This document shows, in pieces, positions 6,463 through 9,206 of a DNA stretch of 28,528 bases. The position numbers and the translations under genes were made by a program. The notes beneath the pieces were generated by a model. That model saw only the letters and a program-made list of their open reading frames with translations. It searched no databases and was not told where the DNA came from. Origin of the DNA: a virus; the IMG/VR virus record IMGVR_UViG_3300044547_000059, positions 1 through 28,528 of that record; one strand, written 5' to 3'. How positions within the stretch are numbered: the first letter of the stretch is position 1; each line of letters opens with the position of its first letter.

Positions 6463-7179
6463 ATGAACGAACAACAACTGGCTAAAAAGCCACAACTTTC
6501 GTACACGAAAGATCAAGTAGAGTTAGTAAAATCGCAGATTGCTCCAGAGGCAACAGTTGATGAACTAAAGCTATTTCTTTATCAAGCACAAAGGACAGGA
6601 CTTGATGCATTATCAAGGCAGATTTATTGCATCCACAGGAACGTTAAAACGCAAAACGGATGGTCTAAAAAAATGACCATTCAAACAAGCATTGATGGAT
6701 TCAGAGTAATCGCTGAACGTAGCGGAAACTATGGTGGACAAAGCGAACCTGTATTTGTAGAACAAGATGGTAAGTTAATTTCTTGTAAGGTATCAGTATT
6801 TAGATTTCACGGCGATTTAAGGTATGAAGCAGCCGTTGGAGTAGCTTATTGGGATGAATACTGCCAAAGAACAAACGAAGGCAAACCAATGGGATTATGG
6901 GCGAAAATGCCACATACAATGTTAAGTAAAGTTGCAGAAGCATTAGCTTTAAGAAAGGCTTACCCACAAGATTTAAGCGGACTTTATACAGGTGATGAAA
7001 TGGCGCAAAGTGATGAAAAACCAGCCTATATTAAAACGCACGATAATCTTGATGATTTAGAGTTAGCTATTGATTTATGCATTAGCACAAACGAATTGGC
7101 TGAACTTTACACATTGAATCAAGAATTAGCCGATAAAGAAGTAACTAAATTATTTACCAAGAAAAAACAAACTTTATGA
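6463..7179 (+). CDS. bet: Phage recombination protein Bet (Red-beta/RecT family single-strand annealase)
   Basis: A 238-residue protein with the Bet family hallmarks: E-L-K-L-F-L-Y-Q-A-Q-R-T-G-L-D-A-L, S-R-Q-I-Y, the I-D-G-F-R-V-I-A-E-R-S-G-N-Y-G-G segment (residues about 79-94), and L-S-K-V-A-E-A-L-A-L-R-K-A-Y-P. It anneals complementary single-stranded DNA in phage recombination and replication repair. The start at 6463 follows a 51-base AT-rich gap and has the AACCAACCAATATGAAC context shared with the gene at 4869. No partner exonuclease is recognisable nearby. The last four bases overlap the next gene. Confidence 0.93.
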   Translation: MNEQQLAKKPQLSYTKDQVELVKSQIAPEATVDELKLFLYQAQRTGLDALSRQIYCIHRNVKTQNGWSKKMTIQTSIDGFRVIAERSGNYGGQSEPVFVEQDGKLISCKVSVFRFHGDLRYEAAVGVAYWDEYCQRTNEGKPMGLWAKMPHTMLSKVAEALALRKAYPQDLSGLYTGDEMAQSDEKPAYIKTHDNLDDLELAIDLCISTNELAELYTLNQELADKEVTKLFTKKKQTL

Positions 7180-8182: not shown

Positions 8183-8377
8183 ATGAGCCAAAACCAACAA
8201 ATCGCAAACTACCTAAATAAAGGTAGAAAATTAACCCCTATTGATGCTTTAAACAAGTTCGGATGCTTTAGATTAGCAGCACGAATAGCTGACCTTAGGA
8301 ATGATGGAATGAATATTAAAACTACCATTGTTAAGCTAAAAAATAAGAAGCAAATAGCACAATATTCGGTTAATTAG
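8183..8377 (+). CDS. Helix-turn-helix protein (HTH_39-like), 64 residues
   Basis: I-A-N-Y-L-N-K-G-R-K-L-T-P-I-D-A-L-N-K-F-G-C-F-R-L-A-A-R-I-A-D-L-R is a compact winged-helix pattern. The L-T-P-I-D-A-L and R-L-A-A-R-I-A-D-L-R motifs are typical of a small phage DNA-binding family (Pfam HTH_39 type). The C-terminus forms the wing (I-K-T-T-I-V ... I-A-Q-Y). It is the last gene before the replication promoter and structured leader, so it could regulate them; that link is positional only. Confidence 0.8.
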   Translation: MSQNQQIANYLNKGRKLTPIDALNKFGCFRLAARIADLRNDGMNIKTTIVKLKNKKQIAQYSVN

Positions 8378-8379
8378 TT

Positions 8380-8387
8380 TAACTTTG
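8380..8387 (+). promoter_or_regulatory. Promoter -7 box of the replication leader
   Basis: TAACTTTG, identical to the boxes at 12568, 14100 and 17157, lies two bases after the upstream stop. With the usual distance, transcription would start near 8391, exactly at the first hairpin of the structured leader. No clear TTTG is seen at -33. Confidence 0.5.
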
Positions 8388-8390
8388 TAC

Positions 8391-8474
8391 AAAGGTGTCG
8401 GATACCTTATACTAACTTATTGGCTCAAAGCTGAAACCCTAATCCGACTGGGGTGGAAGCCGAGAGCCTTTTTT
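8391..8474 (+). ncRNA. Structured leader or small RNA with predicted kissing loop and terminator-like end
   Basis: Hairpin 1 is AAGGT (8392-8396) with ACCTT (8404-8408) and a seven-base loop GTCGGAT (8397-8403). Hairpin 2 is a long stem of matched segments, 8422-8426 with 8464-8468, 8430-8432 with 8458-8460, and 8436-8439 with 8451-8454, separated by symmetric 3x3 purine-rich internal loops. Its apical loop holds ATCCGAC (8442-8448), the exact complement of loop 1. Six T bases follow (8469-8474), as in an intrinsic terminator. The unit has its own promoter box and precedes the replication gene (8481), so it may be a free small RNA, an attenuator, or both. The structure was read by eye and matches no known class I can name. 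Confidence 0.6.
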
Positions 8475-8480
8475 ATTTTT

Positions 8481-9206
8481 ATGGCAAAGAGATTTACTGA
8501 TACAGAAAAGTGGAAAAAGCCTTTTATAAGGTCTTTAAAAGCCCCTTACAAGCTCCTTTGGTTATATATTTGTGATGACTGCGACCATTCTGGAATATGG
8601 CAAGTTGATTTAGAAGTAGCTGAAATAAGGATTGGCGAAAAGTTAGATGAGAAAAAAGCAATACAATATTTTGCGGAAAAAATAATTCCTTTAAATAATG
8701 GGACAAAGTGGTTTATACCAAGTTTTATTGAGTTTCAATATCCAAGCGGTTTAAGTGAAAATAACAAAGCGCATACTGGAATTATTAAAAGTTTAGAAAA
8801 GTATAAAAACGAAATAGACAACTTTAAGCCCCTTGAAAGCCCCTTGCAAGGGGACAAGGATATGGTTATGGATAAGGTAATGGTTAAGGATAAGGTTAAG
8901 GTAATGGTAACAATGCCATTTGAAAGCGAAGAATTTATAAATTATTGGGAAATGTGGAAGGAATTTAAAAGAAAACAATTTAAGTTTACATACGCTACTC
9001 CACAAAGCGAACAAGCAGCTTTAAAAGACTTGGTGAAACTATCAAATGGTGATGAACAAATTGCACTACAAATAATTGAACAATCATTAGCAAAAGGCTG
9101 GAAGGGTTTTTTTGCACTTAAAAACGAAACAAATGCAACAGGAATTAGCTACAATCGCAAACCAACTTTTAGTGAGAGAGAATGGGATGCCCTTAGAAAT
9201 CTATAA
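8481..9206 (+). CDS. Replication protein (initiator/primosome-like, two-domain)
   Basis: I chose the ATG at 8481, giving 241 residues, because the 32 codons before it (from a TTG at 8385) are the structured leader. The N-terminal domain (residues 1-100) has K-R-F-T-D-T-E-K-W-K-K-P-F-I-R-S-L, Y-K-L-L-W-L-Y-I and D-C-D-H-S-G-I-W, the form of winged-helix replication proteins in many Bacteroidota phages. A Lys/Asp/Met/Val repeat linker (about 115-145) follows, encoded by a hexanucleotide tract. The C-terminal part (about 150-241) is DnaD/replisome-organiser-like (Y-W-E-M-W-K-E-F ... K-G-W-K-G-F-F-A-L). It probably binds the origin and recruits host helicase. Confidence 0.7.
   Translation: MAKRFTDTEKWKKPFIRSLKAPYKLLWLYICDDCDHSGIWQVDLEVAEIRIGEKLDEKKAIQYFAEKIIPLNNGTKWFIPSFIEFQYPSGLSENNKAHTGIIKSLEKYKNEIDNFKPLESPLQGDKDMVMDKVMVKDKVKVMVTMPFESEEFINYWEMWKEFKRKQFKFTYATPQSEQAALKDLVKLSNGDEQIALQIIEQSLAKGWKGFFALKNETNATGISYNRKPTFSEREWDALRNL
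8826..8853. repeat. Direct repeat plus 14-base palindrome inside the replication gene
   Basis: AAGCCCCTTG occurs at 8826-8835 and again at 8837-8846. The second copy runs into the perfect palindrome CCCCTTGCAAGGGG (8840-8853). It is unusually GC-rich for this genome and sits immediately before the hexamer array, at the domain linker of the replication protein. Confidence 0.7.
8858..8911 (+). repeat. Nine in-register GG-starting hexamers (iteron-like tract)
   Basis: Hexamers start at 8858, 8864, 8870, 8876, 8882, 8888, 8894, 8900 and 8906. All begin GG and are otherwise A/T (types GGATAA, GGTTAA, GGTAAT, GGATAT and GGTTAT), except the last, GGTAAC. They encode the linker as alternating Asp/Val/Met/Lys residues. 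This could be a simple microsatellite or an initiator-binding array as in the lambda O gene. Confidence 0.65.

Follow-up and report, generated by a model that had tools for sequence, protein, structure and literature searches.

Directly upstream of a candidate replication gene in an uncultured virus genome lie two hairpins with complementary seven-base loops, and the locus raises the questions of whether they belong to a real structured RNA and what such an RNA would do to the gene behind it. The window, meaning the whole 28,528 nt stretch analyzed here, comes from an uncultured virus record (IMG/VR IMGVR_UViG_3300044547_000059, positions 1 to 28,528). The closest relatives of its terminase are found in Bacteroides phages (39% identity), and its genes start in an A-rich context without a Shine-Dalgarno sequence, as is the style in Bacteroidota; because of these two features, the host is most likely a member of the Bacteroidota.

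All features of the locus are on the plus strand. A gene for a 64-aa winged-HTH protein (8183-8377; Pfam HTH_39, E 1.2e-14) is followed by a promoter box of the Bacteroidota -7 type (TAnnTTTG), TAACTTTG, at 8380-8387, a position that is conserved in relatives. By the box spacing of Flavobacterium, transcription is predicted to start (+1) at 8392, the first paired base of hairpin 1 (H1, 8392-8408); an earlier note on this DNA had also put the start at H1, but at base 8391. H1 has a 5 bp stem (AAGGT, 8392-8396, paired with ACCTT, 8404-8408) and a 7 nt loop, GUCGGAU (GTCGGAT in DNA, 8397-8403), which is the 5' half of the proposed kissing helix. A conserved, single-stranded linker, AACUUAUU (8414-8421), leads to hairpin 2 (H2, 8422-8468), which is built from an outer helix of five pairs (8422-8426/8464-8468), a middle helix of three (8430-8432/8458-8460) and a top helix of six (8436-8441/8449-8454). 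These are separated by a lower 3x3 internal loop, AAA/CGA (8427-8429/8461-8463), and an upper one, GAA/GGA (8433-8435/8455-8457), of which the GAA is conserved in relatives. The 7 nt loop of H2, AUCCGAC (ATCCGAC in DNA, 8442-8448), supplies the 3' half of the kissing helix and is the exact reverse complement of the H1 loop. A U-tract resembling that of an intrinsic terminator, TTTTTTATTTTT (T6AT5, 8469-8480), fills the space between H2 and the ATG at 8481, where the gene for a 241-aa replication-initiator-like protein (P0001, 8481-9206) begins. The hairpins, loops, promoter box and U-tract are thus at the positions the earlier note had claimed from the letters alone, including the three-helix H2 with its two 3x3 internal loops and T run, and the location directly before the replication gene.

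The minimum free energy fold reproduces H2 exactly as described and gives H1 with extra, non-kissing pairs inside its loop; its stability corresponds to a z-score of -2.7, with 3 of 200 shuffles folding equally well. A search of the window for exact 7 nt kissing pairs within 60 nt, each stem having 5 bp or more, gives a single case, H1/H2, against a chance rate of 0.035 per window (200 dinucleotide shuffles). The TAnnTTTG motif alone is frequent in the window (50 matches, 47 expected), so the promoter box carries weight only because its position is conserved.

More than 300 IMG/VR loci were gathered by a protein search with the downstream gene and by DNA patterns. The totals from the pattern scans are lower bounds, the leader class being larger than counted, and since IMG/VR contigs are redundant, copy counts do not equal independent events. 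Hundreds of these contigs show the same order of promoter, H1, linker, terminator-like H2, U-tract and AUG. Because a kissing pair is complementary on either strand, the kissing scan can report one set of hairpins again on the opposite strand, and such matches (e.g., before 'MANLQ..') were discarded. About 20 loop allele pairs were found in all, among them GTCGGAT/ATCCGAC, GTCGCAT/ATGCGAC, GTTGCAG/CTGCAAC, GTAGGAT/ATCCTAC, GTCGTTT/AAACGAC, GTACGAG/CTCGTAC, GTACCAG/CTGGTAC and ATGCGAC/GTCGCAT. A covariance model of the nested helices only, with the kissing pairs left out, was used to search 88 sources and gave 65 distinct aligned rows of the architecture seen in the window (class I). Linker columns 43-53 of this alignment are identical in 62-65 of the 65 rows, a count biased by the fact that part of the loci had been picked with the DNA pattern ACTTATTR; most class I leaders found via protein homology also have the ACTTATTR linker, the exceptions being AACTTTTT and AAAATTTT.

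In the 65 class I sequences, all 455 kissing cells are standard pairs and six of the seven kissing pairs have changed on both sides, with a covariation score of 0.576, where shuffles score 0.113 and slid partners no more than 0.057. Two-sided changes are seen in 24 of the 26 pairs of the whole structure: in 4/5 pairs of the H1 stem and in all pairs of the outer (5/5) and top (6/6) helices of H2. The middle helix is weakest, with pairing in 65.6% of its cells among relatives. G-U pairs are absent from the kissing helix, occupy one cell in H1 and are numerous in the H2 helices. Since many of these sources had been chosen by the kissing scan, two sets blind to the loops were counted separately. 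The class I set comprised 117 copies found by linker plus tail, among the matches listed, and every one keeps an exact loop complementarity of 6-8 nt (at least 7 nt in 104; 6 nt in 13, with CCGTAC/GTACGG and GTGCAA/TTGCAC as types that have 6 nt).

A second architecture (class II; GTGTTTAGTGGTTAAATAAT) has a longer H1 stem and a larger H1 loop, and its H2 lacks both internal loops, yet the H2 loop is again 7 nt long and complementary to the H1 loop. In the corresponding loop-blind set, 112 copies retrieved with only the linker and the 3' strand of H1 as the pattern, among the matches listed, 110 keep a loop complementarity of 7-8 nt and the other two have one mismatch each. The kissing helix is the most variable helix of class II, with five of seven pairs changed on both sides. 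The motif TAnnTT[TC]G precedes all 112 loci, and all 112 copies end in a U-rich tract plus ATG at a nearly fixed distance; H1 lies further downstream of the predicted start than it does in class I, and the genes that follow are of the same sorts. The two class II leaders with a mismatch (L262, L333) look as if their hairpins came from different alleles, either as recombinants or as assembly chimeras. The compensatory changes in both loops that the earlier note had proposed to look for are therefore present in both classes, and the loss of complementarity without compensation, which it had named as refuting evidence, did not occur (117/117 class I and 110/112 class II). Such compensatory change is what a kissing-loop RNA should display, and is blind to whether pairing occurs in cis or in trans. 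The comparison supports a genuine kissing interaction in a real structured RNA; the leader structure is well supported, and its function we infer.

The sigma-A box of Flavobacterium psychrophilum lies at -12 to -5 (PMC9723704). Of 109 distinct class I loci, 105 have TAnnTT[TC]G, and among the four without it, L032 simply has a truncated flank; in 103 of the 105 loci with a box, the first H1 pair is located between -3 and +1 relative to the predicted start. H1 would therefore form the extreme 5' end of the class I transcript. The end of the HTH_39 gene usually stands just before the leader in relatives as well, and a conserved protein end, '..QYSVN*', recurs in many of the stretches upstream. 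Two other explanations of the region were rejected. A coding leader was suggested by the P0001 frame, which in the window has no stop codon across the RNA (TTG at 8385), yet the same holds for only 7 of 75 distinct leaders; and a replication origin at the leader finds no reflection in GC skew, the cumulative skew climbing without a turn at 8400.

At its 3' end, the leader differs from the other gene starts of the phage. The H2-to-AUG spacing is nearly fixed in both classes, the U-tract adjoins an AUG in every case, and the U-rich tail plus ATG is also present in 17 loci found with a pattern that leaves out the tail. Almost all leaders have U at positions -1 to -4 and -7 to -9, 104 of 105 have no A at -3, and there is no A-tract; among the other 37 predicted starts of the phage, A occurs at -3 in 21, and at -10, -11 and -12 in 24, 28 and 21, respectively. 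In Flavobacterium johnsoniae, translation is favored by A at -3 and at -12/-13, and replacing A-14 to A-11 by UUUU cut expression by 60% (PMC6847099). A departure from the A-rich rule of the phage is expected if the leader is an attenuator, because its tail must then be a terminator. The alternative is that the 5'-terminal kissing fold guards the mRNA against decay or gates ribosome access to the AUG, with H2 not a working terminator. This would suit the location of class I H1 at the very 5' end of the predicted transcript, the nearly constant spacing between H2 and the start codon it adjoins, and the imperfect tail of some members, in which H2 is followed first by TA, AC or TC and not by an uninterrupted run of U. 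We regard it as unlikely: the tail is U-rich where other phage genes are A-rich, a change that in the UUUU swap lowered expression (PMC6847099), and a GC-rich hairpin foot followed by 8-10 U is what a terminator needs. Imperfect tails also count against attenuation, since TA, AC or TC after H2 would weaken a terminator, as does the failure of a simple terminator scan to call H2, which is explained by the internal loops that break its stem. Furthermore, no competing (antiterminator) helix was seen in a non-exhaustive look; the complementarity of the loops ends where the stems begin, and the two hairpins are conserved as a pair.

On balance, we think that the leader is probably a promoter-proximal attenuator acting in cis, in which a kissing 5' hairpin engages the terminator and an RNA of ~80 nt is a by-product. 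The order expected of an attenuator (promoter, terminator-like hairpin with U-tract, gene) is present and conserved, and this reading is favored because that order and the near-fixed distance to the AUG are kept before many unrelated genes, and because the kissing helix covaries in both architectures and loop-blind copies keep the pairing. Transcription starting at the TAnnTTTG promoter would place H1 at the 5' end of the RNA in class I. The polymerase would next make the linker and then H2, whose GC-rich foot and U-tract would constitute an intrinsic terminator at a distance of 11-12 nt from the AUG. On emerging, the H2 loop would pair with the H1 loop (7-8 bp), and since the complementarity does not run into the stems, both hairpins would stay intact, unlike in a classical antiterminator switch. 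The kissing fold may then set the ratio between stopping in the U-tract, which would release the ~80 nt RNA, and read-through into the gene. Read-through mRNA would be poorly translated, because the U-tract displaces the A-rich context used elsewhere in the phage, and expression of the gene would stay low as long as no signal or factor, with AACUUAUU and the purine-rich loops of H2 as conceivable binding sites, shifts the balance. The promoter position in homologues, the two hairpins, the kissing pairs, the fusion to the AUG and the exchange of downstream genes are readings of aligned sequences; termination, the direction of the kissing effect and the signal are what the attenuator model would add to them.

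The genes behind the leader comprise replication initiators, HNH and GIY-YIG nucleases and methyltransferases, with most copies preceding replication genes. The C-terminal half of P0001 matches a 'DNA replication domain protein' of Klebsiella phages, and the protein has no match to a Pfam family above its cut-off; sister genes in the same place match Lin1244_N and HTH_36, and weakly DnaD_N and DUF1376. Several leader-borne replication genes share the C-terminal tail SEREWDALRNL, or a variant of it, and have unrelated N-terminal parts, which suggests an exchange of origin-binding domains. The leader RNA can be 93-99% identical where the first 100 nt of the gene are only 20-39% identical. HNH or GIY-YIG genes sit exactly between the leader and the replication gene at many loci (L006, L013-L015, L017-L020, L024-L026, L033-L035 and L040-L046), so that the nuclease takes over the leader, and NUMOD4/HNH genes elsewhere in the genome have their own leader. 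Some relatives of the replication gene lack a leader (e.g., L047, L048 and L063-L070), a further point against the attenuator, and in Pseudanabaena phage Pan5 an HNH/replication gene pair has none.

Such exchange could mean that the leader is a recombination joint, its RNA structure being secondary to a shared stretch of DNA. The same 96 nt RNA does border on many different genes, the change being abrupt at the ATG, the replication genes combine common C-terminal tails with swapped N-terminal parts, and HNH and GIY-YIG genes lie exactly at the joint. DNA alone, however, would not keep 24 of 26 pairs by compensatory change, nor loops that vary and are always complementary, which makes a mere joint very improbable; module exchange is likely a consequence of the conserved leader and not its purpose.

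Additional leader copies are found before NUMOD4/HNH genes (L100:7438-7527; L104:6267-6356, minus strand; L117:3932-4021; L123:8532-8621, minus strand; and L340), and their loop is mostly GTGAGAT, unlike the loops of the copy at the replication gene. Contig L210 carries two distant leaders on the minus strand (440-680 and 6900-7120), one followed by a GIY-YIG-like gene and the other by an HNH-like gene; their H1 stems are long (TATTATAGAT..ATCTATAATA), both have the same AACTTATT linker, and the kissing loops differ.

The variety of loops raises another possibility, that the ~80 nt terminated RNA acts in trans, kissing the leaders of other phage copies and so increasing termination and reducing replication, for copy number control or superinfection immunity. 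Loop alleles would then define groups without cross-reaction, similar to the CI RNA of satellite phage P4, a phage that blocks the expression of its own replication genes by RNA-directed premature termination (PMC4825925). Consistent with this are the roughly 20 allele pairs with strict Watson-Crick pairing and no G-U, while the H2 helices tolerate G-U; the preponderance of copies before replication genes; and the differing loops where one contig has two copies (L100, L104, L117, G045 and L210). We nevertheless give trans action only a modest chance. With both loops in one RNA, pairing in cis should be favored, and leader-borne HNH and methyltransferase genes need no replication-control story. 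The five of five two-copy contigs with differing loops are weak evidence, the second copies belonging mostly to one lineage (GTGAGAT before HNH), and for the same reasons, too few and mostly one lineage, they were set aside as proof of orthogonal loops. A bolder form, which seems to us quite doubtful, is a phage-wide RNA code, in which every lineage has one of ~20 alleles and its terminated leader RNA would act in trans against the replication genes of any phage sharing that allele, the leader having also been adopted by homing endonucleases. If true, it would provide copy number control and superinfection immunity without a protein repressor.

Among known systems, the P4 leader is close in outline, a short RNA before phage genes through which the replication operon is terminated early by RNA-RNA pairing, and IsrK of Gifsy-1 is alike in having short terminated and long read-through forms from one promoter (PMC4825925). 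In P4, however, the processed RNA pairs with separate sites in a long leader, whereas here the two loops belong to one ~80 nt RNA, the hairpins are intact and directly before the AUG, the host phylum is different, and there is no match to an Rfam phage RNA. Structured 5' regions downstream of TAnnTTTG promoters are also found in F. psychrophilum, where 64 structured 5' leaders were reported; these precede host genes, and the available part of that study describes no kissing-loop leader (PMC9723704).

The earlier note had compared the locus to ColE1-type plasmids. In ColE1 RNAI/RNAII and pT181-type antisense control, 7 nt loops with fully complementary kissing control replication. Their partner RNA comes off the opposite strand, whereas here both loops are on one strand, so the analogy fails in its defining feature: no antisense partner is evident, as a minus-strand promoter box lies downstream in only 1 of 95 distinct loci. 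Riboswitches with loop-loop contacts, such as the purine riboswitch, are likewise 5' leaders in which a tertiary loop-loop contact accompanies an expression platform beside the gene. The present leader differs in having no closed three-way junction and no Rfam match, and in that the kissing partner is the terminator loop itself; its conserved linker could be a binding site.

The earlier note could name no class for the RNA, and Rfam gave no match at the gathering threshold over the whole window, the best weak match (E 2.7) being on the other strand and irrelevant. A DNA search of isolated phages returned nothing for class I, and for class II only chance matches in the tape-measure genes of Cutibacterium phages. 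Four pattern matches in sampled GTDB contigs were also due to chance, and one weak model match in 395 Bacteroidota genomes lay inside a coding region without kissing loops; this last search used stricter filters and the class I model only, and absence from isolates and sampled genomes may reflect sampling. In the open literature, no report of a kissing-hairpin leader was found, nor any described regulatory RNA of uncultured Bacteroidota phages. The leader, an RNA without a match in Rfam, precedes replication and homing-nuclease genes in hundreds of uncultured Bacteroidota phages and most likely serves as an on/off leader for transcription. These phages gain with it a widespread RNA class whose covariation is unusually clear, and if a 5' kissing hairpin holds the loop of a terminator-like hairpin, the arrangement would make a regulator of simple and small design. 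Its loop alleles offer a ready experiment on whether RNA specificity underlies phage copy number control or immunity, and in annotation it can be used to place the exact start of replication and homing-nuclease genes.

Two minor observations concern the surroundings of the leader. In L172 (9979-10070) and L341, a hairpin with the same tail (AGCCCCC..GGGGGCTTTTTTATTTTATG) and no H1 stands before a small ORF ~400 bases upstream of the full leader. At the contig ends of G022 and G036, and in many other loci, the leader lies near the end of the contig; assemblies often break there, probably because co-occurring phages share it.
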